Part shown: piece by piece, positions 506-12,720 of the stretch | Numbering within the stretch: position 1 is the stretch's first letter | How the letters are laid out: each line of letters opens with the position of its first letter | Origin: Candidatus Aenigmatarchaeota archaeon | Lineage (GTDB): Archaea > Aenigmatarchaeota > Aenigmatarchaeia > QMZP01 | Reading direction: 5' to 3' | Length of the DNA: 12,720 nt | Assembly (NCBI GenBank): GCA_030672885.1 | Contig: DAOVFN010000006.1 | Span: forward strand, 1-12,720 | Translations under genes and position numbers: made by a program | Notes under the pieces: generated by a model | Database searches by the model: none | The model's input: the letters and a program-made list of their open reading frames with translations, nothing else | Told to the model about the DNA's origin: nothing

Positions 506-529
506 GTTTCCTGTGGAGGTTGGGGGTAT
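506..529 (+). promoter_or_regulatory. Origin recognition box 2 (partial match, inverted to box 1)
   Basis: The plus strand reads TTCCTGTGGAGGTTGGGGG from 508. The TTCC-N2-TGGA dyad and a G-string (522-526) are present, but the AAAC segment is replaced. The two G-strings converge, separated by TAT at 527-529. The 13-mer GGTTTCCTGTGGA is also repeated directly at 505-517 and 536-548, 31 bp or about three helical turns apart, so box 2 could instead be read as a minus-strand box without a G-string. Confidence 0.65.
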
Positions 530-550
530 CCCCGTGGTTTCCTGTGGAAC
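527..550 (-). promoter_or_regulatory. Origin recognition box 1 (mini-ORB, full match)
   Basis: The minus strand reads TTCCACAGGAAACCACGGGG at 549-530. This matches the archaeal mini-ORB pattern TTCCA-N2-GGAAAC-N3-GGGG in full, including the terminal G-string that contacts the Orc1/Cdc6 winged helix. Predicted binding site for the product of the adjacent orc1. Confidence 0.8.
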
Positions 551-660
551 TTAAAAAACATAAAACAAGTAGTAAGTAAGTAAGTATAACAGTGTTATAT
601 TATAATTATTATATTATTACAACTACAACAACAAACAATTTATAATTTACTTTCCATAAG
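551..660. other. AT-rich tract, candidate duplex-unwinding element
   Basis: Almost free of G and C compared with its neighbours. It contains a short AGTA/AGTAAGTAAGTAAG run (569-584), the palindrome 584-600, and a long A/T stretch (598-620). It directly abuts the G-string-bearing ORBs, the usual arrangement for an archaeal unwinding site. It also holds the orc1 promoter. Confidence 0.6.
584..600. promoter_or_regulatory. Palindrome copy 1, upstream of orc1 (TATAAC-AGT-GTTATA)
   Basis: GTATAACAGTGTTATAT is 16/17 identical to the palindrome ATATAACAGTGTTATAT found at 7687-7703; only the first base differs. It lies about 38 bp upstream of the likely orc1 TATA box and inside the candidate unwinding element. 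It could be an operator or a site for a replication protein. Four relatives lie between polB and hjc. Confidence 0.7.
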
Positions 661-677
661 AAACGAGGGGGATATGT
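636..677 (+). promoter_or_regulatory. orc1 promoter and Shine-Dalgarno-like site
   Basis: A TATA-like ATTTATAATT at 638-647 predicts transcription starting near 668. GAGGGGG at 665-671 lies 6 nt before the ATG at 678 and supports that start. The tract is so AT-rich that other TATA positions are possible. Confidence 0.45.
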
Positions 678-1883
678 ATGGAAGGGTCTGACCTAAAAAA
701 CATGTTTGAGGAATACATTTCAAAAAAGAACGTCTTTAGGAACAAGGACATGCTCACAATACAGTTCACCCCGCAAAACATTCCTCACAGGGACTCCCAA
801 ATAAAACAGGTCGCTCTCATGCTGGCCCCTGTTCTCAGGAACGAGAAGCCATCAAACGTTTTCATATATGGCAAGACAGGAACAGGCAAGACCCTTGTTA
901 TAAGGAACATTACAGACAACCTAACAGACACAGCGCACAGCGCCGGTGTTGGGTTGATGGTGATATACATAAACTGCAAGATGCAGAAGGTAACCGATAC
1001 CGAATACCGCCTGTTGGCCAGGCTTATTGGTGATTTTGGTGAGGACGTTCCCTATACAGGGCTCCCCACAACCGAGTTGTACAAGAAACTATTCGCCCAT
1101 CTCGAGTCAGCGGCCAAGAACATAATCATAGTGCTTGATGAAGTGGATTCACTCATAAACAAGATTGGTGATGGTGTGCTCTACAACTTCACCAGGATAA
1201 ACCAGGAACTGGAAAAAACAAAACTCACATTGATTGGGATATCGAACAACCTGACCTTTGTGAAGCTGCTTGATCCAAGGGTGAAGTCATCCCTTTCTGA
1301 GGAAGAGTTGGTTTTCCCCCCATACAACGCCACACAGCTTAAGGACATACTCTCTGTCCGTGCAGAGGGCGCGTTTTTTCCCGGGATGATATCATCTGGT
1401 GTGGTAGCAAAGTGCGCTGCGCTGGCTGCTCAGGAGCATGGGGACGCCAGGAAGGCCCTGGATCTGCTCAGGGTGTCCGGGGAGATGGCTGAGCGGGAGG
1501 GAAGCCAGAATATAACAGAATCACATGTGGATATTGCGCAGAGAAAGCTTGATACAGACCGGTTCATGGAGACGGTCAGGACCCAACCCAAACAGTCCCA
1601 GGCAGTGTTCATGGCCATACTTAACATGCATATGAGCGGGGACGGGAAAATACAAACCGGTGGTGTCTTTGATGTGTATTCGGATATATGCAGAAACAGC
1701 GGAATGAAGCCACTTACCCAGAGAAGGGTGTCAGATCTCATATCAGAACTCGAAACGTTTGGGATAATATGCACCTCGATAAGATCCAGGGGAAGGTACG
1801 GCAGGACAAGGATGATAGACATAACACTATCTACCGAGTTGGTGAATAAGATGAGGAACCTCCTCATAAAGGAGTTTTCGTGA
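678..1883 (+). CDS. cdc6: Orc1/Cdc6 replication initiator (AAA+ ATPase)
   Basis: Origin-binding initiator that recognises ORBs and recruits the MCM helicase. The 401-residue protein has the complete family layout: Walker A GKTGTGKT at 65-72, Walker B IIIVLDEVD at about 149-157 with D154/E155, sensor 1 GISNN with N190, sensor 2 GDARKALDLL with R258, then a C-terminal winged helix (about 300-400) whose wing is the basic SRGRYGRTR at 370-378. Length is normal for archaeal Orc1/Cdc6. The start at 678 follows a GAGGGGG Shine-Dalgarno-like sequence and gives the usual N-terminal arm. The gene sits next to a predicted origin and is followed one base after its stop by DP1, so the two are probably co-transcribed. 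A palindrome shared with the polB-hjc region lies about 78 bp upstream. All ATPase residues are intact, so it should be active. Confidence 0.97.
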   Translation: MEGSDLKNMFEEYISKKNVFRNKDMLTIQFTPQNIPHRDSQIKQVALMLAPVLRNEKPSNVFIYGKTGTGKTLVIRNITDNLTDTAHSAGVGLMVIYINCKMQKVTDTEYRLLARLIGDFGEDVPYTGLPTTELYKKLFAHLESAAKNIIIVLDEVDSLINKIGDGVLYNFTRINQELEKTKLTLIGISNNLTFVKLLDPRVKSSLSEEELVFPPYNATQLKDILSVRAEGAFFPGMISSGVVAKCAALAAQEHGDARKALDLLRVSGEMAEREGSQNITESHVDIAQRKLDTDRFMETVRTQPKQSQAVFMAILNMHMSGDGKIQTGGVFDVYSDICRNSGMKPLTQRRVSDLISELETFGIICTSIRSRGRYGRTRMIDITLSTELVNKMRNLLIKEFS

Positions 1884-1884
1884 T

Positions 1885-2868
1885 ATGGACAGGCAGGGGG
1901 TGGTAAGGGAGCTTACGAAGAGGGGCGTCCTTGTGACACCTGAGATGCTTGAAGGCGGTGGGCTGGAAGCGCTGCACAAGCATGCTCCCATCCAGACACA
2001 TGCGCCCAAGAAGGCCCTGCCCAAGCTCTCGGTTAAGATAAGGAGGGCAGAGCGGCTGCCGCAGATGTCTGTGGAGGATTTTGGTTCATATTATAATGCC
2101 CGGTATGCGGGACTAAGGGACATGATACTGAAAAGGATGCCTGCGCTCTCGATAAACAAAGCCAGGGAAGGTTTTTCAGACGTGTCTGTTGTGGGGATGG
2201 TTAAAGAGAAGGGTCCGGGGGGATTTGTGCTCGAGGACACGACCGGGGAGATTTTCGTGGTGAGCGGTGATGATGTGGCAGGGGACGATGTTGTTGGTGT
2301 CCGCGGGGTAATAAAGGAGGGGAGAATGTTCCAGAAGGAGCTCATGTGGCCGGACGTGCCCGCCAACAATGTCAGGAAGGCCGTGCCTGGTGTGCTGCTG
2401 CTCTCAACGTTCATGGACGATATCATCAGGGGAGTGGCTGGTGATTTCACCCTGATGTTCATTCCAGAGGAACCAAACATAGAGATTGCTGATGATGAGA
2501 AGAGAAAGCTTATAACCAGGCTGCCTAACCCCTGTGCCGCCTCCATAAACACAGAAGGCAGTACATTCAGCCTGCTCATATACACCCCCACCAGAGAGGT
2601 ATCTTTGGATGATGTTGTGGGGTTTCTGAAGAGGAGGCACCTCTCCCCAGACAAAAGAGAGATATCCACAAAGACAGACCCATATCTCATAGAGCCGGTC
2701 CCTGATCTGTTCTGGGTGATATCAGGAGAGCGGCGCGTTGAAAGGTACAGGGGCGTCACCATAATAATGACCAGAAAACATGACGCTGTGAAATACGACA
2801 CAGGGACAGGTGAAGTCAGCTTTGCCTATAACAACCCCCCACCACAGACGCCTCACGCATCTTCATGA
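1885..2868 (+). CDS. polB (DP1): DNA polymerase D small subunit (DP1), short and catalytically degenerate
   Basis: Small subunit of replicative PolD, partner of the large subunit DP2, which is not in this window. Identification rests on the N-terminal VEDFGSYYNARYAGLRDMIL (63-82), an OB fold (about 97-160), and C-terminal DP1 landmarks: GFLKRRHLSP at 246-255, then DPYLIEPVPDLFW (265-277) and RYRGVTIIMT (287-296). At 327 residues it is much shorter than the roughly 450-600 typical of the family. The phosphoesterase motifs are missing: STFMDDI replaces the usual SDxH, the GD segment is absent, PEEPN stands where GNHD is expected, and ISGERRV replaces GHxH. The 3'-5' exonuclease activity is therefore probably lost, leaving a structural subunit like the eukaryotic B subunits. 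The start at 1885 follows AAAGGAG at 1868-1874, one base after the orc1 stop. DP1 is sometimes named polB, not to be confused with family-B polymerase. Confidence 0.87.
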   Translation: MDRQGVVRELTKRGVLVTPEMLEGGGLEALHKHAPIQTHAPKKALPKLSVKIRRAERLPQMSVEDFGSYYNARYAGLRDMILKRMPALSINKAREGFSDVSVVGMVKEKGPGGFVLEDTTGEIFVVSGDDVAGDDVVGVRGVIKEGRMFQKELMWPDVPANNVRKAVPGVLLLSTFMDDIIRGVAGDFTLMFIPEEPNIEIADDEKRKLITRLPNPCAASINTEGSTFSLLIYTPTREVSLDDVVGFLKRRHLSPDKREISTKTDPYLIEPVPDLFWVISGERRVERYRGVTIIMTRKHDAVKYDTGTGEVSFAYNNPPPQTPHASS

Positions 2869-4131
2869 ATGTTTCTTTATGTGCGCGCCAAATATATACC
2901 CATGTTCCTTGATGTTCTCATATTCATGCTGCTTGGGATTCTGGTCGGAACCCTTACGGGCCTGATGCCTGGGATACATCCAAACACTGTCTTTGTGTGC
3001 ATGATATCCATGATTGCGCTTATGGGCAGCGCGCCAACAATACTGCTGCTCGTGTTCATTATGGCGCTCGCGGTATCCAATACGTTTGTGGATTTTCTCC
3101 CCTCTATAATATTCGGGGCGCCTGACCCGTCGACTGCGCTGTCGGTCCTCCCCGGGCACAAGCTCCTCTTGGAGGGCAGGGGGCATGAAGCAATCATGCT
3201 CACGGTCATGGGAGGCCTGGGTGTTGCCGTGCTCACGTTTCTCACCATGCCCCTGCTGATACACATCATACCGCAGGTGTACCCTGTCATAAGGCCTGTC
3301 CTTCACATACTGCTCATTTTCGTGGTCGTGTGGATGATAGCTACGGAAAAGGATTGGCGGGGGAGGGTTTCTGCCATGGTGGTGTTCCTCTTGTCCGGCA
3401 TGTTTGGTGTGGTGTCCCTGAACGCCTTTGCATCTGGAACCATGCTCTTTCCCAGCCTGACGGGCCTCTTTGCGCTGAGCACTCTGCTCGTGAGCTTCTA
3501 TACAAGAAGCGTCATACCCCACCAGGACAGGACCACGGAGATACCAGGCGACCACAGGAAGGGGATACTGATAGGGTGGGTTGCCGGGTGGTTTGCAGGC
3601 ATGCTGCCTGGCGTTGGCGCCGCCCAGGCCGGGGTTCTGGCAGCCCAGTCCCTGAGGGCCAGCACAAGGGAATTCATCACAGCGCTGGGCGGCATCAACA
3701 CATCGAACATAATGTTCACGTTCATAATGTTCTATGTGATAGGCAGAACCCGCTCTGGTGCGGTGTGGGCGATATCCCAGTTGGTTGATTCCATTACCCT
3801 CTGGGACATGGCGTTGATGATGTTAGTCGGGATAACAACATGCTTTGTCTCAGCAATCGTGACAATTGGTATAGCAAGGGTGCTTCTCAACCAGATAAGG
3901 AGGATAAACTACAGCACCATGAGCCTGGCGGTGATGGTGCTGCTTGTGTTTATGGTGCTCGTGCTCTCAGGTCCCTGGGGAATGCTGGCAGTGCTTACGG
4001 GGACGTTCATGGGCCTGCTCTCCATACTCTTCAGGGTCAAGCGCTCACACCTCATGGGGTATCTCATCCTTCCTACGATACTTTATTTCTCAGGACTCTC
4101 ACCCATGCTCATGGCGAGTGTGGGCATATGA
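2869..4131 (+). CDS. TctA/DUF112-type multi-span membrane protein (COG1784-like)
   Basis: Integral membrane protein resembling the TctA subunit of tripartite tricarboxylate transporters, in the form widespread in archaea; substrate unknown. The 420 residues are almost wholly hydrophobic, with roughly ten membrane segments. Two internal halves carry the same glycine-proline signature: GTLTGLMPGIHPN at 28-40 and GWFAGMLPGVGAA at 239-252 (W241 to A251 central). This fits the family's inverted-repeat fold. FGAPDPSTALSVLPGHKLL (82-100) is another family-like loop. The start at 2869 abuts the DP1 stop; the alternative ATG at 2902 removes 11 residues before the first helix and also lies in frame. 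No TctB or TctC partners are seen, as is usual in archaea. Its place behind orc1-DP1 is probably positional co-transcription rather than a replication role. Confidence 0.78.
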   Translation: MFLYVRAKYIPMFLDVLIFMLLGILVGTLTGLMPGIHPNTVFVCMISMIALMGSAPTILLLVFIMALAVSNTFVDFLPSIIFGAPDPSTALSVLPGHKLLLEGRGHEAIMLTVMGGLGVAVLTFLTMPLLIHIIPQVYPVIRPVLHILLIFVVVWMIATEKDWRGRVSAMVVFLLSGMFGVVSLNAFASGTMLFPSLTGLFALSTLLVSFYTRSVIPHQDRTTEIPGDHRKGILIGWVAGWFAGMLPGVGAAQAGVLAAQSLRASTREFITALGGINTSNIMFTFIMFYVIGRTRSGAVWAISQLVDSITLWDMALMMLVGITTCFVSAIVTIGIARVLLNQIRRINYSTMSLAVMVLLVFMVLVLSGPWGMLAVLTGTFMGLLSILFRVKRSHLMGYLILPTILYFSGLSPMLMASVGI

Positions 4132-4161
4132 TATGCCTCTTTGCTGCCCCTGACCAAATAT

Positions 4162-4297
4162 GTGGGTTCATGTGTTCGGCAATGAGAGTTTAACCAAAAA
4201 TCGTCTCACTGCGCATAAAACGATGAGACGTCTCTGCGACAATGTCATTGGAGACGCAGACCCAGTGGGTTCATGTGTTCGGTGATGAGAATTTAAC
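4162..4297. repeat. 33-bp direct repeat pair flanking two hairpins
   Basis: Copies at 4162-4194 and 4265-4297 start GTGGGTTCATGTGTTCGG and differ at 3 of 33 positions; they are 103 bp apart. Between them lie two potential stem-loops: CGTCTCA/TGAGACG (4202-4208 with 4224-4230), and TCTGCG/CGCAGA (4233-4238 with 4255-4260) enclosing a second stem CAATG/CATTG. No open frame covers the block. It may be a small structured RNA, a decayed mobile element or a regulatory repeat; nothing in the sequence decides. Confidence 0.6.
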
Positions 4298-4404
4298 AGA
4301 AAACAATTGTCCATAACCACGCTTCAGATATGGGGTTTCTGGTCGGGCATAACAATGAGGTGAACCGTCCTGGTGGGTGTTATTGTAGGTGAAGGAACAT
4401 GAAC

Positions 4405-4424
4405 TTCCACAGGAAACCTGGGGG
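4405..4424 (+). promoter_or_regulatory. Origin recognition box 3 (mini-ORB, full match)
   Basis: TTCCACAGGAAACCTGGGGG matches TTCCA-N2-GGAAAC-N3-GGGG at every fixed position. It shares TTCCACAGGAAACC with box 1 beside orc1. It points rightwards, toward boxes 4 and 5. Confidence 0.78.
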
Positions 4425-4476
4425 TATTTTATGTCCGCATGCTATCGAAATGAATGCCAGATGAAGGTAATATGAA

Positions 4477-4524
4477 CCCCACCACTTCCACTGGAGAAAC
4501 CGCACCCCATCACTTCCACTGGAG
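4477..4524 (-). promoter_or_regulatory. Origin recognition boxes 4 and 5 (tandem, minus strand)
   Basis: The minus strand reads CTCCAGTGGAAGTGGTGGGG at 4496-4477 and CTCCAGTGGAAGTGATGGGG at 4524-4505. The two copies differ at one base and are 28 bp apart. Each keeps the CCA-N-TGGAA dyad half and the G-string of the mini-ORB pattern, with GT in place of AC. Their G-strings face box 3 across about 52 bp, the converging arrangement seen at archaeal origins, although the DNA between is less AT-rich than the tract next to orc1. Confidence 0.68.
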
Positions 4525-4600
4525 GATTCTACACCGATTCACAAAAACACCAGACCTTAACACCCATAGCGGTGAAGTGACAGTTAATATGCATAAATGG

Positions 4601-4610
4601 TATTAATATC
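4601..4610 (+). promoter_or_regulatory. TATA box of the chorismate mutase remnant
   Basis: TATTAATATC is centred about 25 bp before the ATG at 4630, the spacing for a leaderless archaeal transcript. This favours 4630 over the in-frame ATG at 4597, which lies upstream of this element. Confidence 0.4.
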
Positions 4611-4629
4611 ATGTGAACAAATACGCAGC

Positions 4630-4889
4630 ATGGTTCCAGAACCAGGGAGCAGCCGCCCAGAACAAGCACAGCGTGAAATCATAAAGCGCCGCGAAGAGAT
4701 TGATGCTATAGAGCTGGATGCAATGAGCCACCTTAAAAGGAGGATTGAGCTTGCTGGGGAGATACAGCGCATCAAGAGGATGTGTGGCATGCATGCAAAC
4801 CACCCTGCAGCACATCCCTGAGAAAACGATTCATAGAAGACATATACGCCGTGATATTCAGGGAAGCCGGGGGTGCCTGGCCAGTGTGA
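4630..4889 (+). pseudogene. Chorismate mutase (AroQ type) remnant: internal deletion and frameshift
   Basis: The first frame (4630-4821) encodes a typical AroQ helix 1: RREEIDAIELDAMSHLKRR, then IELAGEIQRIKRMCGM, with the arginine and lysine positions that bind chorismate in this family. It then runs into HANHPAAHP and a TGA at 4819-4821. A second frame continues from about 4818 as LRKRFIEDIYAVIFREAGG and stops at 4887-4889, which reads as the family's last helix. The DPERE-type middle helix, with its catalytic Asp/Arg/Glu, is missing, so about 20 residues were lost together with the frame. The gene would have ended 4 bp from the convergent polB stop. A reading as two small genes is possible, but a deletion remnant of a shikimate-pathway enzyme (chorismate to prephenate) fits better. 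Confidence 0.65.
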
Positions 4890-4893
4890 TTCG

Positions 4894-7533
4894 TCAGGTC
4901 TTTACCTGCTCAGCAGTCCCGCCGCTGTGAGAAAACAACATCCTTCCCCCGCACGCGCACGCCCCAACCAGAGGAGGTCTGGTATAGAACTTGCCGCATT
5001 TCTCGCAGGCAAAACCACCCATATCCCTGATTGGAATCTCTTTCAGCGGCTTCTTTTGTTGTTGCTGGGTATTGATTATGTGCATGAGGTCAGACTGTCT
5101 GCCCCCGCCCATGAGCATAGAGCGCGATATACCAAGCACGCCGAATATCCTCTCCATTGGTGGAAGGAGCTGGTTCTCGATATAATATTTGGAGTCCACA
5201 GGGATGCCGTTCTCTTCAATATAAGAGGGGTCCTCTGCGCGCTTGGACAGCAGCCCCATTCCCTTCACGATGACATATCCTATCCTGTCACCCACGCCAG
5301 GCACCTCGCCGCTGTTCCTGGCCTGGAGCTTCTTCACGAGCTCTATGTGGGGTTGCATGCCCTCATATTTTTCCGGTGGTTTGGTCATGGTTTTTGTGAC
5401 AATGAGCTTCTGCATGCCTATCTCATTCTTCACAAGCTTCTGGACTATCCCTGTGAAGTACGTTAATGCTTCCATGGGATCGTCCTTTTTCAGGACTATG
5501 TTTATTACGTTTGTGAGGGTATCACTCACAAGCTCGCACCAGTCTCTTCTGACAGTCTCTATCCCCTTCATCTCTATGCCCTCTTTCCATTCATCACCCC
5601 TGGGCTCGAATTTCCAGGCAACATAGCGCTTCTTGGTGAGGGGAAGGAACCGCTTGAACGCCTTTTCAAATTCCAGTTCCATGATACCAGGCAGGCGCTC
5701 TGTTATGCCCCCAGACACTCTTTTCGCTATTTTTCGGGTCTTCTCCAGGTCGTCTGTGTCAATCTTGACCATTACAGAGTCGGTGTCCCCGTACACAACA
5801 CGATAACCATATTCTTTTTCAACCATGTCCTTGGTCGTGTGGATGATGTCCCTTCCGCACGCCGTGATGGTGTTGGCCACGCTGAGGTCGTATATCCTGG
5901 CCCGTGAATATCCCATATGCCCATAGAACGCATTGGCCATTATCTTGAGAGCCCACTGCTCTGCATCATATGCCCTTCTCTTGTGCGGGTCCTTTGCCCG
6001 GGTCTTCTTTTTCTTGGCTTCTGCCCGGCCTTCCAGCAACCTCTTGAGTATTGTTGGTATGATTCCCACCCGAACATCCTCGGGAACGAATCTCGTACCG
6101 GTAATGGTTTCTATGGGATTATCGACAAGCTTGTCCTTGATGAGCGTGGTTGGGCATATATTGAACGATCTTATGATTGATGGATACATGCTCTTGAAGT
6201 CCAGCACGACCACGTTTGAGTGCAGCCCCTTTTCGGGCTCGAGCACATACCCCCCCTTGAGCTCACTCTTCTTGTTTTCATCCCTTCTGGCTATCTCCCT
6301 GGCAGTGGGCCTGCATGGGAGCACATATCCTCCCTTGTTGAACTCCCTCAGGAGGAAGTTCTCTATCCTTATCGTCTCCCCACTGTTCAGCGTGTCCTGG
6401 AGCAGCGTTCCAGAGATTTTTGAAAGCGCCACGTACTTGTCTATGAGGTTGAGCTCCTGCACAAGGGACATGGCCAGGACAGAGTCCTTTTCTGAATACT
6501 TCACAAGCTTCGCGTATTCCTCTCTGCTGCCCTTCCAGAACTTCTCTATCTGGTGCATCTTTACGGGCTCCTTATGTTCTCCCAGAAGCTTGCCTGATAC
6601 AAAATCCAGGCTGTATCTCATAAGGGAGTAGTCCTTCTTTATGATTTCAAAACTGTCCACAATGACCCGGCCTATTATCGAGACCCTGTATCTGGACATG
6701 AGCTTTCTTGCGTGGACCTGTTTCTGGTTGCATCGGCCCATGAGCGGCCTTATCCTGTGCGCTCTCATCCTGTCCAGTATGTAGGGGATATCGAAGTTGT
6801 TTATGTTGTAGCCTGTGAGCATGTCAGGATCATACTGGTCGATTGTGCCCATGAAGCCCTCAAGCATCTCCTTTTCTGATGAAAACGTCGTTACCCCTGT
6901 CCCTGGCCTTGTGCTCATCACCATTTTGGACACGCCCTTGAAAGGTTCGCTGAACACAAGAGATATGAGGACAATGGGGTCGTTGGCGGCCTCCGGGAGC
7001 GTCCCGGGCCTTACGGGAACGCATTCTATGTCAAACGCGAGCATCTTGATGGGAGCATCCTTGGGGTTTTCCAGGGGTTCCAGCGAATCAAGCCTTACAC
7101 ACCTCTCAACATTTACGCTGTTTGTGGAAACCCCGTTCCCCTCTTTGAACCTGATCCACCCAAGGCCCTTGATGCCCAGGTCGTTCATGAACCTGTATTT
7201 GAAAAGGATGTCGGCCTCGTATGTGGGAATCCCCGCGGCCACCAGCTTCTCCCTGAGCTCGGGGGTTTTTGATGGGTTGGATATGGTTATCTTGTATATC
7301 TCCTTGGGGTCCTGGTAACTCATGACCATCTTTCTGGAGACCTTTTCTATCCTCTGCACCTGGGGCTCGTCCTTCAGGAGTTCCCGGGCTTTCTCTCCAT
7401 CTGCATAGAAGTACGGCTTGTAATCCTCATAGAATGCGCATACAGACTCGCCTGATTCACTCTTCCCGAATATCCTGACCACAGGCTTCTCATTCACCAA
7501 AATATAGTCAACATCAAGAACCTGTATATCCAT
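4894..7533 (-). CDS. polB: Family-B DNA polymerase with 3'-5' exonuclease
   Basis: DNA-dependent DNA polymerase for replication or repair, 879 residues from the chosen start. All catalytic motifs are intact. Exo I is DIE at 168-170, Exo II YNINNFDIP (D248), Exo III YSEKDS (Y346, D350). Polymerase motif A is DFKSMYPSII (445-454), motif B KIMANAFYG (530-538), motif C YGDTDS (581-586, D583 and D585), then KKRY (634-637). No intein interrupts it. The C-terminal tail has C843-x2-C846 and C859-x-C861, a probable zinc site, preceded by QSDLMHII, a possible weak PCNA-binding motif, and a Q-rich linker. The start at 7533 gives MDIQVLDVDYIL, the usual first strand; in-frame ATGs at 7545 and 7569 are alternatives. 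It is transcribed divergently from hjc across the palindrome region and convergently with the chorismate mutase remnant. Confidence 0.95.
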   Translation of the reverse strand: MDIQVLDVDYILVNEKPVVRIFGKSESGESVCAFYEDYKPYFYADGEKARELLKDEPQVQRIEKVSRKMVMSYQDPKEIYKITISNPSKTPELREKLVAAGIPTYEADILFKYRFMNDLGIKGLGWIRFKEGNGVSTNSVNVERCVRLDSLEPLENPKDAPIKMLAFDIECVPVRPGTLPEAANDPIVLISLVFSEPFKGVSKMVMSTRPGTGVTTFSSEKEMLEGFMGTIDQYDPDMLTGYNINNFDIPYILDRMRAHRIRPLMGRCNQKQVHARKLMSRYRVSIIGRVIVDSFEIIKKDYSLMRYSLDFVSGKLLGEHKEPVKMHQIEKFWKGSREEYAKLVKYSEKDSVLAMSLVQELNLIDKYVALSKISGTLLQDTLNSGETIRIENFLLREFNKGGYVLPCRPTAREIARRDENKKSELKGGYVLEPEKGLHSNVVVLDFKSMYPSIIRSFNICPTTLIKDKLVDNPIETITGTRFVPEDVRVGIIPTILKRLLEGRAEAKKKKTRAKDPHKRRAYDAEQWALKIMANAFYGHMGYSRARIYDLSVANTITACGRDIIHTTKDMVEKEYGYRVVYGDTDSVMVKIDTDDLEKTRKIAKRVSGGITERLPGIMELEFEKAFKRFLPLTKKRYVAWKFEPRGDEWKEGIEMKGIETVRRDWCELVSDTLTNVINIVLKKDDPMEALTYFTGIVQKLVKNEIGMQKLIVTKTMTKPPEKYEGMQPHIELVKKLQARNSGEVPGVGDRIGYVIVKGMGLLSKRAEDPSYIEENGIPVDSKYYIENQLLPPMERIFGVLGISRSMLMGGGRQSDLMHIINTQQQQKKPLKEIPIRDMGGFACEKCGKFYTRPPLVGACACGGRMLFSHSGGTAEQVKT

Positions 7534-7607
7534 GCAATGCACCATTCTTTGGGGCCGCGCATCACCCATGCAAGCGACACGCAACGTTAATATCTTGCCA
7601 GGAAAAC

Positions 7608-7615
7608 AATAAAAA
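7608..7615 (-). promoter_or_regulatory. Candidate polB TATA box
   Basis: The minus strand reads TTTTTATT, predicting a transcript start near 7586 and a leader of about 50 nt to the chosen ATG at 7533. A second A/T element, AGATATTAAC, near 7585-7594 would shorten the leader. The choice between them is open. Confidence 0.3.
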
Positions 7616-7686
7616 CACACCACAGCCTGGGTTGTATATGATGGAGGGATGGTTTCCTGTGTGCGGGTTTCGGTGGACCCGAGGAA

Positions 7687-7899
7687 ATATAACAGTGTTA
7701 TATATTGCGATGTCCATATCACAGGACGGCCAGTACCAGGATCCTAACAGATATAACACCGTTATATATTACACTGCCCTCATACTAAGGCAGCAATTAC
7801 CCAAACCTCAACAGATATAACAGCGTTATATTCACAGACGCCCCACATCAACACAGCAGGCAATGCAGAGAAACACCAACAAATATAACACTGTTATAT
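7687..7899. repeat. Four phased 17-bp palindromes between polB and hjc
   Basis: Copies lie at 7687-7703 (centre AGT), 7751-7767 (ACC), 7815-7831 (AGC) and 7883-7899 (ACT), all ATATAAC-N3-GTTATAT with perfect arms. Centres are 64, 64 and 68 bp apart, close to six helical turns. Flanks also agree: AACAG or similar before, and TTCAC-, TCTCAC- or TTACAC-like sequence after three copies. The DNA between copies is unrelated. A fifth copy lies upstream of orc1 (584-600). The block occupies the shared upstream region of divergent polB and hjc. It probably binds a dimeric protein, as operators or iteron-like sites. Confidence 0.85.
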
Positions 7900-7917
7900 C
7901 TCACCCAACCACCACAG

Positions 7918-7925
7918 AATTAAAA
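7918..7925 (+). promoter_or_regulatory. hjc TATA box
   Basis: AATTAAAA is centred about 25 bp before the ATG at 7947, which predicts a leaderless hjc mRNA. The last palindrome (7883-7899) ends 18 bp upstream of it, a position usual for an archaeal activator. Confidence 0.5.
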
Positions 7926-7946
7926 CCACGAAAACAAAACATTCAC

Positions 7947-8309
7947 ATGAAAACGTATCAAAAGGGCTTCCGAGCAGAGCGAGAATTGCTGCGCTTCCTT
8001 AGCTCCCGCGGCTACTCCTGCGTGCGCAGCGCCTCCTCGGGCGGGTTCCTTACGCCCGTAGACATGGTTGCCATAAAATCAGGCAAGCTCCTCTGCTTTG
8101 AAATAAAATCCTGGGCCAAGAAGCCCCGGCTCGACAAGTCCCAACTCTCCCGCTTCTCTGCATGGTGCCGCAATGCCCAGGGCCACGGCTTTGTTGCGTG
8201 GTACAACCAGAACCAGTGGAGATTCCTCCCCATAGGCGATGCCGAGGCCAACCGCTACGATGACGAGAACTGGATAGACTACGAGTCCTTCCTGAGTGTG
8301 TTTCTCTGA
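7947..8309 (+). CDS. hjc: Holliday junction resolvase Hjc
   Basis: Archaeal four-way-junction endonuclease of recombination and fork repair. The 120-residue protein has the complete nuclease core: YQKGFRAERELLRFL with E11-R12, VRSASSGG with R27, TPVDMVAI with D39, and CFEIKSW with E52 and K54 (the E-x-K motif). Family length is about 120-140. The ATG at 7947 is chosen over an in-frame ATG at 7863 because homologues begin just before the KG-xx-AERE motif and because a TATA box lies 25 bp upstream. It is divergent from polB and shares the palindrome array with it. The C-terminal tail after GDAEAN is acidic (YDDENWIDYESF) and adds about 20 residues beyond the nuclease core. The stop is 24 bp from the convergent winged-helix gene. 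Confidence 0.93.
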   Translation: MKTYQKGFRAERELLRFLSSRGYSCVRSASSGGFLTPVDMVAIKSGKLLCFEIKSWAKKPRLDKSQLSRFSAWCRNAQGHGFVAWYNQNQWRFLPIGDAEANRYDDENWIDYESFLSVFL

Positions 8310-8333
8310 CACGCTACAGCCGCTTCATACCAA

Positions 8334-8630
8334 TCAAATCCTTGCATTCAGTCCCCTCACGACCTGCTTCTCCCCCACGCCTGGGTTCTTGACCTTCACC
8401 AGTTTGATCTTCAGGCCTATGTCTTCCAGCTCCTCTGGTATGACCATGTCCACAAAGGGAAACATCCATACATCAAGCGTCCTGGAAACCGTCCACTTAT
8501 GCAGCCCTGTCTCCCTGGCTATCTCACTGACCGTGAGGTGGCCCCTGTCGTCCTGGTGGGCCTTTTGAAGCACCCTGTATATCTTTGTGACATTCCCGAT
8601 TGTGTTCTTATAGAACCTTGGCTTTGCCAT
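8334..8630 (-). CDS. Small winged-helix DNA-binding protein, function unknown
   Basis: A 98-residue protein with a clear helix-turn-helix at about 33-55: HLTVSEIARETGLHKWTVSR, with helix 2 SEIARETGL and recognition helix HKWTVSRTLDVW. After it comes a two-strand region with KIKLVKVKN (74-82), which could be the wing. The N-terminus (MAKPRFYKNTIGNVTKIYRV) is basic. I believe similar short proteins occur in several archaea but know no assigned function. It is convergent with hjc. It is one of two candidates in this window for the protein that binds the polB-hjc-orc1 palindromes, an inference from proximity only. The start at 8630 lies about 26 bp downstream of a TATA box, so the mRNA is probably leaderless. 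Confidence 0.8.
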   Translation of the reverse strand: MAKPRFYKNTIGNVTKIYRVLQKAHQDDRGHLTVSEIARETGLHKWTVSRTLDVWMFPFVDMVIPEELEDIGLKIKLVKVKNPGVGEKQVVRGLNARI

Positions 8631-8650
8631 GATAATAATTTGACGAGGGC

Positions 8651-8660
8651 AAATTTATAA
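8651..8660 (-). promoter_or_regulatory. TATA box of the winged-helix gene
   Basis: The minus strand reads TTATAAATTT, centred 26 bp before the ATG at 8630, the spacing for a leaderless archaeal transcript. It marks the left edge of the AT-rich islet. Confidence 0.55.
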
Positions 8661-8743
8661 GCAATTGAATAAAAACTTGCATGCAGCATAGTCTGCTGAT
8701 GCTGTGGCTGGACCGCATAACAACATAAAGCAGGCCAGCCTAG

Positions 8744-8857
8744 ACTTTTGCGTTTTTTATTTCCGAATTAGCAGAAACGATAGGTACAAAACCATCAAAA
8801 GCTGTTCAGGCTGTTGAGGAACTGAAGAAAGAAGGTTTGGTTAGTGATAGTGATTAA
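8744..8857 (+). pseudogene. C-terminal fragment of a winged-helix/HTH gene
   Basis: An open frame without a start codon, just after a TAG at 8741-8743, encodes FFISELAETIGTKPSKAV followed by QAVEELKKEGLVSDSD and a TAA at 8855-8857. This is the helix-turn-helix plus wing pattern at the end of many archaeal small regulators. No N-terminal part is found upstream, so it is a truncated relic. The sequence before it (8690-8743) is non-coding. It abuts the transposase remnant, so an insertion may have cut the gene. Confidence 0.55.
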
Positions 8858-8858
8858 A

Positions 8859-9148
8859 TGGTTCACATCAGAGAGGATAATCTTATTGGGTCTACTAGTC
8901 CCGAACCCCGAATATGCCTTTGGGAGACCTACGCTTCCGCTATCGGACATGGTGTTCGCCTCTACACTAAAGGTCTATACCACTTTCTCGCTACGGAGGT
9001 TCACATGATAAAGACCAAGTTCGGTGATTCGGTAAGGAGCAAGGAGAAAACAGCACAGATTAATGAAGTATTGCTGAAGGTATTATGCCACAACATAGTG
9101 GTTTTGGTGCATGAGATGTTTGAGATGGGGATAAATCATCAGTTCTAA
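8859..9148 (+). pseudogene. DDE transposase remnant with internal deletion
   Basis: Two frames give two ends of one transposase. The frame beginning near 8859 reads YAFGRPTLPLSDMVFASTLK and VYTTFSLRRFT, the N-terminal block of a widespread DDE transposase group, and stops at about 9006-9008. The neighbouring frame continues immediately as HMIKTKFGDSVRSKEK, then TAQINEVLLKVLCHNIVVLV and HEMFEMGI, the C-terminal block of the same group, and stops at 9148. The catalytic core between them is missing, so the copy cannot transpose. A 96-codon frame with an ATG at 8858 spans the junction, but its first half is out of frame with the N-terminal block. The IS family is uncertain (IS5/IS1182-like). It marks past mobile-element activity beside the acquired RelA/SpoT gene. 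Confidence 0.75.
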
Positions 9149-9159
9149 TATATTTAACT

Positions 9160-9237
9160 ACCGCGCAAATGAATATTTTTATAAGAATAGTCGTTATTTA
9201 CCTATAGAAATAACCGCGCAAAATGAAGTTTTAAATA
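9160..9237 (+). promoter_or_regulatory. Duplicated promoter-like element upstream of the RelA/SpoT-domain gene
   Basis: ACCGCGCAAATGAA at 9160-9173 and ACCGCGCAAAATGAA at 9213-9227 are near-identical and 53 bp apart. Each is followed within a few bases by a TATA-like stretch: TATTTTTATAA near 9174 and GTTTTAAATA at 9228-9237. The second is centred about 26 bp before the ATG at 9259. This looks like a tandem promoter or a duplicated operator plus TATA. Confidence 0.5.
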
Positions 9238-9258
9238 ATAGTGAAACTATGTTATATC

Positions 9259-10326
9259 ATGACTTGGGCAAAACCAAAAGGATACTCTAAAAATACGATT
9301 AATCGCGCTGGAGATATTTTAATCAGCGATAGAAGTTCAAAAAAAGAAAAGAATGAAGCAATAGAGGTTTTAGGTAATTGGAGGGCAATTCATAGTTATC
9401 CAACACATGTCTTTAAAATAAGACTAAAAGATAAGGCAAGGATTATTGATAAAAACTCATTAACTGCACAGCGTCTTAAGCGTGCTACATCGATTATTAA
9501 CAAACTAAAAAGAAGATATAATGGATGTACACCAACAATGAATCTTTCCCAAATGCAAGATATTAGTGGATGCAGAGCTGTTTTATCGAACGTATCATTA
9601 GTAAGAAAACTGTATATAGATTATTATTTGAAGGGGGACTTAAAACATAAAAAAGTTGGAGAAAAGGACTATATTGCTACTCCCAAAAAAGATGGATATA
9701 GAAGCATTCATCTAATCTATAGATATTTCAGCGATAAGGGGAAGACAGAATATAATGGGCTGCTTGTGGAAATCCAATTAAGGTCAAAATTACAACACCT
9801 TTGGGCAACCGCTATTGAAACAGTAGATTTCTTTACTCGGCAAGCCATTAAATCCAATGAAGGCCAGGAAGAGTGGACGAATTTCTTCAAGTTAGTAAGT
9901 TCTGCTTTTGCTAAGATTGAAGGTTGCCCATGCGTTCCGAATACTCCAAGTGACGAAAAAGAACTTTACTCCCAAATTAAGAGAAAAGAAGCAGAATTAA
10001 ATGTTATAAAAAAAATGAGTAGCTGGACAAAAAGTGTTAAAGTTTTCCGAGAGGTAATTAAAACTAAACCAAATTTACAATACTTCTTATTAGATTTAGA
10101 TATTGTAGGAGAGAAATTAAGTATTACAGCATATACAAAAAAACAAGAACAAAGAGCAATTTTAGATTATGCCAAGGCTGAAGAAAGGAATCGGGGAAAA
10201 AAAGAGAATGATGTTGTTCTTGTTGGAGCTGATACCACCAATGAATTGAAAAAAGCATATCCTAATTATTTTGTGGACAGCAGAGATTTCTTGTTTAATT
10301 TGAAAAAAATCGTAAATAAATATTGA
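9259..10326 (+). CDS. RelA/SpoT-domain protein (predicted nucleotide pyrophosphokinase or ToxSAS-like), acquired
   Basis: A 355-residue protein with an N-terminal RelA/SpoT synthetase domain and no HD hydrolase, TGS or ACT domain. Motifs: RLKRATSIINKLKR (72-85), MQDISGCRAVL (99-109, D101), DYIATPKKDGYRSIHLIY (137-154, Y147, H151) and VEIQLRSKLQHLWA (170-183, E171). The catalytic acidic residues are kept, so it could transfer pyrophosphate to a nucleotide or, like some ToxSAS toxins, to tRNA. The C-terminal part (about 200-355) ends in LKKAYPNYFVDSRDFL, shared with bacterial proteins of this layout. RelA/SpoT enzymes are rare in archaea. The gene is far more AT-rich than its neighbours and lies beside a transposase relic, so transfer is likely. 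ATG 9259 is preferred to GTG 9241 because a TATA box lies 26 bp upstream. No cognate antitoxin is evident. Confidence 0.85.
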   Translation: MTWAKPKGYSKNTINRAGDILISDRSSKKEKNEAIEVLGNWRAIHSYPTHVFKIRLKDKARIIDKNSLTAQRLKRATSIINKLKRRYNGCTPTMNLSQMQDISGCRAVLSNVSLVRKLYIDYYLKGDLKHKKVGEKDYIATPKKDGYRSIHLIYRYFSDKGKTEYNGLLVEIQLRSKLQHLWATAIETVDFFTRQAIKSNEGQEEWTNFFKLVSSAFAKIEGCPCVPNTPSDEKELYSQIKRKEAELNVIKKMSSWTKSVKVFREVIKTKPNLQYFLLDLDIVGEKLSITAYTKKQEQRAILDYAKAEERNRGKKENDVVLVGADTTNELKKAYPNYFVDSRDFLFNLKKIVNKY

Positions 10327-10454
10327 TAATTTGCCCCTAAACTATGGTTGCTAATAAAGTAGGTTCAAATCACGCCTTTATTAACAAAGCCATCTTTCTG
10401 TTGCAAAAGTAACCCTTATTTTGGACTTATGCAACAAAGCCATAGCCAGCGAAA
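10327..10454. repeat. Non-coding tract with IS-end-like inverted and direct repeats
   Basis: TGTTGCAAAAGT (10399-10410) and ACTTATGCAACA (10425-10436) form 12-bp inverted arms with one mismatch and a 14-base loop. AACAAAGCCAT occurs at 10383-10393 and 10433-10443. On the minus strand the right arm reads ATGGCTTTGTTGCATAAGT, which resembles terminal repeats of IS6/IS26-like elements as I remember them. No transposase is adjacent. It may be a leftover IS end or MITE-like piece bounding the islet on its right. Confidence 0.45.
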
Positions 10455-10499
10455 GCTTTATATACGCTCTTGTTATATATACTTATATAACAGGTGATT
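10455..10499 (+). promoter_or_regulatory. Promoter, operator-like palindrome and ribosome binding site of the winged-helix gene
   Basis: A TATA box (GCTTTATATAC, 10455-10465) is followed by a perfect 9-bp inverted repeat TGTTATATA-N4-TATATAACA at 10471-10492, which covers the expected transcript start near 10486. GGTGATT at 10493-10499 then lies two bases before the ATG at 10502. A site over the start of transcription is the usual place for archaeal repression, so autoregulation is a reasonable guess. The half-site TGTTATAT is also the arm of the polB-hjc-orc1 palindromes. Confidence 0.65.
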
Positions 10500-10501
10500 A
10501 T

Positions 10502-10780
10502 ATGCAACTTATGAAAAAGGAAATCCTGCATTACCCCCAGCTCGATACTGTGCTCATGGTAGAGGAGTTCATAAGAGGAAACAGTGGAGAATTCAGGAAG
10601 AGGCAGTTATGGGAAAATCTTCCCAGGAAGATGATGTACCAGACTTTTTGTGTCATATTCGATTACCTCTTCAGTTCAGGCAAGATAGTTGCAGACAAGG
10701 AAGGATATATTGTATGGATATGGAACCCTGCGATTGTTAAGAAGTACATGAGCAAGAAGTACCTTTGGTTGAGAAAATGA
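10502..10780 (+). CDS. Small winged-helix-like protein, function unknown
   Basis: A 92-residue protein beginning MQLMKKEILHYPQLDTVLMV. The central part has a helical block VEEFIRGNSGEFRKRQLWE (20-38), then MMYQTFCVIFDYLFSSGKIV as a possible recognition helix region and a strand pair DKEGYIVWIWNP as a wing, so a winged-helix fold is likely. I believe close relatives are common as uncharacterised proteins in several archaeal lineages but know no function. The start at 10502 is fixed by GGTGATT just upstream; an in-frame ATG at 10421 lies upstream of the promoter and is rejected. Its operator shares a half-site with the palindromes at orc1 and polB-hjc, which makes it a candidate for their regulator, an inference only. 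The stop is 54 bp from the convergent aminotransferase. Confidence 0.75.
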   Translation: MQLMKKEILHYPQLDTVLMVEEFIRGNSGEFRKRQLWENLPRKMMYQTFCVIFDYLFSSGKIVADKEGYIVWIWNPAIVKKYMSKKYLWLRK

Positions 10781-10834
10781 CAAGGGATATTTACGGAAAT
10801 CCATGGCGCACAATAAACCCCTGTAGGGGAGTAC

Positions 10835-12010
10835 CTATCTACCCGCCTTCTTCCTGACGGCCTTCTCAATCCTGTCCATGGCTTTCTCAATCTTCTCATA
10901 CGCTGTAGCATATGACAGCCGGATGAACCCCTCACCCATCCTGCCGAACTCTGTACCAGGAATCGTTGCCACCTTCGCTTCCCTGAGCAGCCATTCAGAT
11001 ACATCGAGACTCTTCATCCCCATACTCGTCACGTTCGGGAACGCATAGAACGCGCCCTCGGGCTCCATGCATGACCATCCCGGAACCTCGCACACCCTTT
11101 TTACAATCATCCTTCTCCTCCTGTCATATTCCTTCCTCATCCTTTCCACCGCGCCCTGCGGGCCCCTCAGGGCCTCTATGCCCGCGACCTGAGAAACAGT
11201 GGGAGCGCACAGCGAGGAAAACACATGCAACTTGGTCATGGCCCCTATTACGTTCTCTGGCCCGCATGCATAACCCAGCCTGAATCCTGGCATGGCATAC
11301 GTCTTTGAGAAACTGTGCAGCGTCATGACGTGCTTTTCCATCCCATTCAGCGAGCCTATGGATATGTGCTTTGCATCCTTGTACACGAACTTCTCATACG
11401 CCTCATCAGACAGCACGAGCAACCCATGCTCCACCGCGAAACCTGCAATCTCCTCCAGGACCTTCCTGCTGAACACCGTTCCTGTGGGATTTGACGGCGT
11501 GTTCATTATAAGCACCCTGGTCTTCTCCGGAACAATGAGTTTCTCCATCATGTCCACATCGGGCTGGAATCCCTTCTCCTCCTCCAGCGGAATCGATATG
11601 GGCATGCCGTTCAGGACCTCCACCGTGGGCGTATAGGACAGGAACCCCGGGTCAGGCACCATCACACCCTCTCCCGGGTCTATGGTAGCAATGAGCGCAA
11701 GCATTATGGCCTCCGTGGAGCCGCAGGTAACTATGATGTTCTCCTCTCCGGCCTCTATCCCATTTTCCTTCTTCAGCTTCCTTATCACAGCCTGCTTGAA
11801 ATCCCATCTCCCGGCTACAGGGGAATAGCGCGTCATCTTCTTTGCCAGCGCCTCCCTGGCCGCCCTCAGAACATTCTGCGGCGACACAAAGTCTGGCTCC
11901 CCTGGTCCAAGGCTGATGATGCCCCGGCCCTCTGCCGCAATCTTCAGCATCCTTCCTATCGTAGAGACAGGGAGCCCCTTCTCCCGGTCAGAGATTATGC
12001 CCCTTAGCAT
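10835..12010 (-). CDS. PLP-dependent aminotransferase, class I/II (aspartate aminotransferase-like)
   Basis: Fold-type I transaminase that moves an amino group between an amino acid and a 2-oxo acid; exact substrate undetermined. The 391 residues contain the family signatures: LGPGEPDF (34-41), YSPVAGRWDFKQAV (62-75), the cofactor-binding NTPSNPTG (170-177, N174), SDEAYEKFVY (201-210, D202 and Y205), the Schiff-base lysine in SFSKTYAMPGFRLGY (K236, R244), and a carboxylate-binding Arg in FIRLSYA (R364). Length is normal and no residue is missing. It could serve aspartate, aromatic amino acid or alanine metabolism; the nearby chorismate mutase remnant gives no firm link. The ATG at 12010 lies about 25 bp downstream of a TATA box, so the mRNA should be leaderless. 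It diverges from the acyl-CoA synthetase gene across only 31 bp. Confidence 0.93.
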   Translation of the reverse strand: MLRGIISDREKGLPVSTIGRMLKIAAEGRGIISLGPGEPDFVSPQNVLRAAREALAKKMTRYSPVAGRWDFKQAVIRKLKKENGIEAGEENIIVTCGSTEAIMLALIATIDPGEGVMVPDPGFLSYTPTVEVLNGMPISIPLEEEKGFQPDVDMMEKLIVPEKTRVLIMNTPSNPTGTVFSRKVLEEIAGFAVEHGLLVLSDEAYEKFVYKDAKHISIGSLNGMEKHVMTLHSFSKTYAMPGFRLGYACGPENVIGAMTKLHVFSSLCAPTVSQVAGIEALRGPQGAVERMRKEYDRRRRMIVKRVCEVPGWSCMEPEGAFYAFPNVTSMGMKSLDVSEWLLREAKVATIPGTEFGRMGEGFIRLSYATAYEKIEKAMDRIEKAVRKKAGR

Positions 12011-12041
12011 GCTTTATATTGAGGCCAGCCAAATAAATACC
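12011..12041. promoter_or_regulatory. Interlocked divergent leaderless promoters
   Basis: Only 31 bp separate the start codons of the aminotransferase (-) and the synthetase (+). On plus, CTTTATATT at 12012-12020 is centred 26 bp before ATG 12042. On minus, TATTTATTTGG at 12029-12039 is centred about 25 bp before ATG 12010. Each TATA box therefore lies beside the opposite gene's start, so the two initiation complexes would compete for the same DNA. Confidence 0.65.
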
Positions 12042-12720
12042 ATGAAGAAAATGGACTATTTCTTCCGGCCCAAATCGGTTGCCATAGTGGGGGCAAGCCG
12101 CCGCCACAAAAAAATAGGCCACGTCATACTCAGGAACTTCATCGAGGGGGGCTTCTCCGGCAATGTATATCCCATAAACCCCAACACAGACGAGATGTTC
12201 GGCCTTCCGTGCTATCCCTCTGTGCTCAGGGTTCCCGGATGAATAGACCTTGCCGTAATCTCAGTCCCCGCCCCCCTGGTACCCAGGACACTCGACGAGT
12301 GCGGCCGCAAGCGCGTTCCGGCCGTGATAATAATCTCAGGCGGCTTCGCTGAGACAGGCAACCGCGAGCTTGAAGAGGACTGCCTCAAGATAATCAGGAA
12401 ATACCGCATGCGGGCTATCGGCCCCAACTGCATCGGATGCGTCGATCCCCGTTCCGGCATGGACACGTTCTTCCTTCCCAGATACAAGCTCGGGCGCCCC
12501 AAACACGGCAGCACAGCATTTATCTCCCAGTCCGGCGCCCTCGGTTCTGTTGTTCTGGACTGGATGGCCATGAAGGGCTACACGATATCCAAGTTCATAT
12601 CCTACGGCAACGCCATCGACGTGGACGAGGCCGACCTCATTGAATACCTGGCCAATGACCCGGAGACCAAAGTGATATGCTGCTACTTCGAGGGCCTCAA
12701 ACATGGCAGAAGGTTCTATG
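12042..12720 (+). pseudogene. ADP-forming acyl-CoA synthetase, CoA-binding N-terminus, with in-frame TGA; runs off window
   Basis: The frame encodes the NDP-forming acetyl/acyl-CoA synthetase alpha part, which couples acyl-CoA cleavage to ATP formation in many archaea. After MKKMDYFFRPKSVAIVGASR the CoA-binding Rossmann motif (GAS at 17-19) leads to NVYPINPNTDEMFGLPCYPS. A TGA at 12240-12242 stops the frame after 66 residues, between VLRVPG and IDLAVISVPAPL. Downstream the same frame stays open to the window edge with full family motifs: IIISGGFAETG, AIGPNCIGC, FISQSGALGS and FISYGNAIDVDEADL. The phospho-histidine domain would lie beyond the edge. Nothing else has decayed, so the stop is recent, a sequence error or read through. 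TGA is used as the normal stop by orc1, DP1, tctA, polB and hjc. CGA (Arg) to TGA is the simplest single change. Confidence 0.82.

Follow-up and report, generated by a model that had tools for sequence, protein, structure and literature searches.

Archaeal replication origins follow a plan in which an AT-rich region is flanked by inverted repeats that resemble the origin recognition box (ORB) and carry G-strings (PMC4010727). In S. islandicus, a further motif, ucm, is located midway between ORB2 and ORB3, and mutations over it abolish firing of oriC1 without changing the level of Orc1-1 (PMC12141716). The protein UBP, a beta-sheet saddle, binds the 11-bp ucm as a monomer, contacts MCM and has over 300 chromatin immunoprecipitation (ChIP) sites (PMC12141716). 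Whether proteins of this kind also act at the origins of more divergent archaea is the question with which that report closes (PMC12141716). A comparable arrangement is described here in 12,720 nucleotides of Candidatus Aenigmatarchaeota archaeon (contig DAOVFN010000006.1; the whole of this stretch is called the window), which form contig C98 of a 0.77-Mb genome that is 74% complete. It centres on a palindrome, ATATAAC-N3-GTTATAT (the box), a copy of which lies near orc1. The box is likely to be the binding site of a small helix-turn-helix (HTH) protein, MKPxCE, encoded outside the window; it is predicted to be the central element of oriC and also stands before the gene of that protein and before other genes that vary with the lineage. 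Throughout, genomes, contigs, loci and families are numbered with the prefixes G, C, L and f.

By sequence, the locus shares with ucm and UBP of the Sulfolobales and Desulfurococcales a motif midway between inverted ORBs, an AT-rich unwinding region and an orc1-linked origin; the motif likewise recurs elsewhere in the genome, mostly between genes, and the candidate binder is again a small DNA-binding protein (PMC12141716). Unlike the 11-bp ucm, which a monomer binds, the box is a two-armed palindrome. Its candidate binder is predicted to be a helical HTH protein, unlike the beta-saddle of UBP, the two folds being compared through the published description and not by sequence. The 11 exact box sites in its own genome are far fewer than the over 300 ChIP sites of UBP and, in contrast to UBP as described, MKPxCE is predicted to be autoregulated in many lineages (PMC12141716). 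Because a palindromic motif and a helical candidate are set against a beta-sheet saddle, the box and MKPxCE appear to be like ucm and UBP in place, and perhaps in job, but not members of that system. The layout known from ORB/Orc1 origins, with inverted ORB-like repeats, G-strings and an AT-rich region next to orc1, was found in the sequence, whereas the central palindrome is an extra element and no ORB (PMC4010727). WhiP at Sulfolobus oriC3 is another non-Orc1 protein tied to an archaeal origin, but it initiates its own origin without ORBs, while the box adds to an Orc1-type origin (PMC4010727). Fis and IHF, which are unrelated proteins, similarly illustrate one protein at both origin and promoters (PMC12141716). 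Judged by titles and the beginnings of abstracts, no description of the box or of the MKPxCE protein was found among the papers that literature searches returned, nor any archaeal regulon with this box, as a preliminary description of the window had supposed.

The same description had counted five copies of the box, and these were recovered at the same positions: four exact copies between polB and hjc, and one with a single mismatch near orc1. A pattern scan of the 12,720 nucleotides found no further full copy, again as described. With up to three mismatches allowed, the window contains seven matches (those at 1510 and 9241 have three mismatches) against a shuffle mean of 0.35, and none of 200 shuffles reached seven. 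The features around the orc1 copy are as follows.

506-518, minus strand: outer left ORB-like element (pattern match, one mismatch)
537-549, minus strand: left ORB-like element (pattern match), its centre 48 bp from the box centre
550-651, no strand: AT-rich stretch between the ORB-like elements, 82% A+T, a candidate unwinding element
584-600, no strand: box with a single mismatch, at the centre of the predicted oriC (pattern and comparison)
652-671, plus strand: right ORB-like element (pattern match, ORB-like part 652-664), then GGGGG
678-1883, plus strand: orc1, Orc1/Cdc6 initiator (Pfam Cdc6_lid and Cdc6_C)

When orc1 upstream regions are aligned, CCC..TTTCnnnTGGAA commonly stands to the left of the box and TTCCAnnnGAAA..GGGG to its right; these read as a pair of inverted ORB-like elements, with G-strings, that enclose an AT-rich stretch. 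The box is present in 52 of 70 usable regions; within 90 bp of it, an ORB-like element occurs on the left in 44 of the 52, on the right in 50 and on both sides, inverted, in 43, compared with 0.04 (maximum 1) in shuffled flanks. A second test, of 64 selected regions, in which a C- or G-string was also required and two mismatches were allowed per ORB, recovered the full ORB-box-ORB trio in 42. In 37 of these trios the box centre lies no more than 10 bp from the ORB midpoint; the median inter-ORB distance is 98.5 bp, and the mean A+T fraction between the ORBs is 0.805.

A competing explanation, to which only a minor share of belief is given, is that the box is an ordinary repressor operator of a stress, repair or iron-sulphur (Fe-S) regulon that includes orc1, and that it lies in the origin merely by overlap of the orc1 promoter with oriC. 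Such an operator would account for boxes close to the start codons of many non-replication genes, and orc1 is indeed the adjacent gene in the regions examined. However, the distance from the box to the orc1 start ranges from -73 to -382, with a standard deviation (SD) of 82.1 bp over 44 loci, whereas in the same loci the distance from the left ORB to the box is nearly constant (median 47 bp, SD 9.1). The position near the ORB midpoint also speaks against a plain operator, as does family f7, where the box begins over 330 bp upstream of orc1 in all four regions that yielded one. Because its distance to the left ORB is steady and that to the orc1 start variable, the orc1 box is best read as the central element of the predicted oriC, and it is not placed like a promoter site.

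Genome-wide, the box (core TATAAC-N3-GTTATA) was sought together with its reversed pattern as a control. The 11 exact sites of the genome itself compare with none for the control, and with up to two mismatches there are 21 sites against five. Across 100 genomes, this one included, 135 exact sites were found against two for the control, and 45 of the genomes have at least one. Thus, the box is widespread in this class of Aenigmatarchaeota, above chance. In the fetched loci, 87 of 120 exact sites fall outside called open reading frames, although these frames (60 amino acids or longer, and over-called) span 92% of the loci; this intergenic enrichment parallels that of ucm and UBP, at a site number far below that of UBP. 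The three central bases, which had been described as variable, do vary but are constrained: the centre is ACT or AGT in 70 of the 120 sites and AAT or ATT in 22.

Within 600 bp of the sites, the recurrent neighbours are headed by the Lhr helicase (15 loci), orc1 and a small HTH protein (11 each), cysteine desulfurase (nine), a phosphoesterase adjoining orc1 (six) and a 242-amino-acid XRE regulator (five). These are followed by hjc and S-adenosylmethionine (SAM) synthetase (four each), rtcB and polB or its paralogue (three each), and rubrerythrin and an endonuclease III-like protein (two each); single cases include a peroxiredoxin, the FTR1 iron permease and a pyridoxal phosphate enzyme resembling cysteine synthase. 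One example each of Lhr, cysteine desulfurase (Aminotran_5), rubrerythrin, peroxiredoxin, HhH-GPD, FTR1, PALP and FtsZ was checked against Pfam, while the SAM synthetase and the phosphoesterase were named by eye. In the genome itself, the other sites include two before rtcB, one before the XRE regulator and some around a DUF7718 gene; a one-mismatch site (C10:261) falls within a coding frame. Five box-like sites with zero to two mismatches occur on contig C113 (L019: 3518, 6947, 7772, 7848 and 7951), three of them within 200 bp before the DUF7718 gene (L019:7388-7720). A box with two mismatches (L021:1903-1919) lies 127 bp before ftsZ (Pfam Tubulin and FtsZ_C).

Orthologues were also chosen first and a box with up to two mismatches then sought within 300 bp upstream. 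By this test, the box precedes 28 of 29 orc1 orthologues in the order (families f1-f5), compared with seven of 24 for hjc, five of 30 for polB, six of 30 for lhr, five of 29 for iscS and seven of 30 for the XRE regulator; shuffle means range between 0.06 and 0.27. In L292 and L295, two of the seven, the hjc site is in fact the origin box, hjc and orc1 being divergent there; the polB match of L355, one of the five, is no more than AT-rich sequence. Beyond these families, 13 of 22 orc1 genes elsewhere in the class have the box. By these orthologue-first counts, orc1 is the constant target throughout the order, whereas the other genes counted come and go; polB, hjc, lhr, iscS and rtcB are lineage-variable targets. 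According to the preliminary description, every copy sits before a replication or repair gene, which holds within the window and fails genome-wide. The description had further proposed one dimeric protein coordinating initiator, polymerase and resolvase. A dyad site common to replication and repair genes does make a single sequence-specific protein most likely; the coordination itself is to be recast in view of the low polB and hjc counts and of a wider circle of neighbours that includes the regulator itself, lhr, iscS, rtcB and rubrerythrin. Random scatter of the sites, or their loss from close relatives, had been named as outcomes that would speak against the proposal. The scan disagrees with random scatter, and loss applies to most polB and hjc sites but not to those of orc1.

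The remaining copies in the window form an array between the divergent polB and hjc genes, with start-to-start spacings of 64, 64 and 68.

7687-7703, no strand: box 1 of the array, exact (pattern match)
7751-7767, no strand: box 2, exact (pattern match)
7815-7831, no strand: box 3, exact (pattern match)
7883-7899, no strand: box 4, exact, starting 64 bp before the hjc start
4894-7533, minus strand: polB, family B DNA polymerase (Pfam DNA_pol_B), start chosen from homology, relatives aligning from residue 1
7947-8309, plus strand: hjc, Holliday junction resolvase (Pfam Hjc), start chosen from homology

Among the orthologues examined, the four-box array is present in this genome only; its role could be that of a strong operator or of a titration site. 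Its evenly spaced copies are what would recommend an iteron-like, plasmid-type replication site, which had been offered as an alternative; as an account of the box this is hardly credible. The box is a palindrome, and at the origin it occurs as a rule in one central copy, where an iteron origin would consist of direct repeats in tandem. Most relatives do not keep the polB and hjc sites, and no ORB-like match flanks the array. At orc1, where the box is placed relative to the ORBs and not to the gene start, the alternative was nearer the truth in assuming a replication site, although what stands there is one central element, not an array of iterons.

The predicted binder, MKPxCE, is a protein of 98 to about 170 amino acids with an HTH_3-like domain, found in 92 of the 100 genomes (four hits are weak: G029, G038, G050 and G097; three are partial: G000, G024 and G048). 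M1, C5 and E6 are invariant in the 41 aligned members (alignment A3), and a CxxC at 93-96 is near-invariant, C93 and C96 each occurring in at least 90% of them; L156 and L158 are family members without it. Of seven proteins scanned, five (L244, L196, L255, L263 and L156) score above the gathering threshold of Pfam HTH_3, L159 falls below it and L366 has no match; HTH families were the only ones found. The N-terminal HTH of XRE type is shared with ThiR and other archaeal regulators. The scanned MKPxCE proteins differ from ThiR in being without a ThiN domain. A structure model of the candidate is all-helical, with a predicted local distance difference test (pLDDT) score of 83.7.

Scanning 160 bp upstream with up to two mismatches found the box before the MKPxCE gene in 52 of 86 genomes, against 0.35 (maximum 2) in shuffles. 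It begins 15-75 bp, and once 132 bp, before the start, and in some genomes overlaps the start codon, an arrangement that would fit repression at its own promoter. Thus, MKPxCE is probably autoregulated in many lineages. Archaeal homologue loci (L244-L267) have the operator at up to two mismatches in 14 of 24 cases, including Hadarchaeum (one mismatch), two Bathyarchaeota (two), five Nanoarchaeota/Parvarchaeota (zero to one) and a Thermoplasmata metagenome-assembled genome (one mismatch, at -140); three more have it with three mismatches.

The protein and the origin box also vary together. In 67 of 86 proteins, Q occupies residue 48, which falls in the recognition helix. Counting only boxes with an ORB-like element in range (six Q48 genomes had none), a GTAATA half-site occurs in the origin box of two of 46 Q48 genomes and of nine of 13 with H, L or K at this position. 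Both changed together in four families: G015 (f1), G040 (f4), G057 (f17) and the f10 clade. The half-site change appears in the MKPxCE promoter as well, in G015 and in the f10 genomes that have a site, five of nine. In family f8, no convincing MKPxCE protein and no origin box were found in any of five genomes. The co-variation and this joint absence form a more direct link between MKPxCE and the origin box than neighbourhood offers. Thus, MKPxCE is the probable binder, and Orc1 and the two small HTH proteins of the window are less likely candidates.

It is very unlikely that Orc1 or a paralogue binds the box as a second kind of initiator box, with the HTH gene only a target. The box does lie in the origin beside orc1, and bacterial initiators can also regulate promoters, as DnaA, which is unrelated to MKPxCE, acts at both. 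However, separate ORB-like elements exist for Orc1, f8 keeps orc1 without the box, and the half-site at the origin varies with residue 48 in the HTH protein. The 242-amino-acid XRE regulator (L018:2206-2931) has very little claim to be the binder, even though in this genome a box starts 72 bp ahead of the gene and one precedes seven of 30 orthologues; some of those boxes are common to a divergent hjc. Family f8 keeps this regulator and has no exact box, f12 is without it and has exact boxes in three of four genomes, and boxes are similarly frequent in genomes without it (10 of 25) and with it (35 of 75).

Several observations weigh against the assignment to MKPxCE and to the origin. The association of residue 48 with the half-site (Fisher p 2.7e-6) is calculated without correction for the tree, and a rough count of events (four of seven against two of 46) is weaker, at p 0.0016. 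Residue 48 changed with the half-site unchanged in G098, G018, G047 and G059, and the reverse occurred in G033 and G096. Clear ORBs are likewise lacking in family f8, whose origin may therefore have been relocated, and two f8 regions have AT-rich two-mismatch matches beyond 500 bp. No promoter box was found at up to two mismatches in f6 (zero of six) or f7 (zero of five), and their origin boxes persist nonetheless (four of six and four of five). Seven of the 24 archaeal loci are without an operator, including Methanohalophilus, Methanococcoides, L250, L251 and L258. In the genome itself the MKPxCE gene is cut at the edge of contig C134, the remaining part beginning with Q48, so its own promoter is not readable. 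The six matches to the ORB search pattern in the window, against 2.5 expected, are not significant alone, so the case for the origin elements rests on comparison. ORB-like matches in the opposite orientation occur near the box on the left in 12 of 52 regions and on the right in 23, which means that the ORB-box-ORB plan is not strict.

If MKPxCE is the binder, a dimer would be expected on the dyad, given a palindrome and an HTH protein, and repression would be its likely action at promoters, since sites over start codons leave little else. At the origin, Orc1 would bind the flanking ORBs and bring in MCM, while MKPxCE would occupy the midpoint and act on initiation, as proposed for UBP on ucm. 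In this way, a single protein would connect events at the origin with its own level and with several genes of replication and repair. The lineage-variable targets cover replication, repair, RNA repair, Fe-S assembly and oxidative defence, with polB, hjc and rtcB represented here. A bolder extension, offered tentatively and with rather less than even confidence, is that archaea beyond the Sulfolobus branch have their own midpoint-of-origin factor, MKPxCE, needed for or controlling MCM activation and also sending a signal to promoters. Those promoters may be of polymerase, resolvase, helicase and Fe-S genes, and the signal may be redox or Fe-S state, received through the cysteines.

That MKPxCE senses Fe-S or redox state is a guess prompted by C5 and the CxxC, by the neighbours iscS, rubrerythrin and peroxiredoxin, and by an HTH-family member near iscS. 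This second member (L110:2146-2508 and relatives) is encoded within 600 bp of iscS in nine genomes (G002, G006, G007, G009, G012, G014, G015, G016 and G019), which may hint that the cysteine-bearing C-terminal part senses the Fe-S state.

Further features were noted in the window. Two further ORB-like matches on the plus strand, at 4405-4417 (no mismatch) and 4486-4498 (two mismatches), lie in the gap between a TctA-like gene and polB with no box near; a pattern scan of 2475-12720 found no others. A phosphoesterase-like frame, read by eye, occupies about 1-440 on the minus strand. Behind orc1, a 327-amino-acid protein (1885-2868) has no Pfam match; it seems to resemble the N-terminal part of the PolD small subunit. 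The segments 4134-4171 and 4297-4348 are nearly identical (97-100%) to the end of contig C100 (L018:3013-3050 and 2939-2990, reversed), where the copy sits just behind the XRE regulator gene; this repeat may be a point where the assembly broke. A stretch of low G+C at 8640-10800 (about 30-35%, compared with about 50% around it) encodes a RelA/SpoT-domain protein (9241-10326, Pfam RelA_SpoT) and a small protein without a Pfam match (10502-10780). It looks like a foreign island, perhaps with an alarmone-type toxin or defence gene.

For this phylum of DPANN archaea, the analysis provides a concrete candidate element and protein that speak to the question left at the close of the UBP report (PMC12141716), and MKPxCE may correspond to a replication factor known until now from Sulfolobus and its relatives alone. 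The correspondence of residue 48 with the half-site offers a built-in test of specificity, and the ORB-box-ORB signature could locate origins in genomes known only from metagenomes. The findings suggest a single small regulator that couples replication and repair genes to the working of the origin. If the same protein-operator pair truly operates in Hadarchaeota, Bathyarchaeota and Nanoarchaeota, that would make it old.

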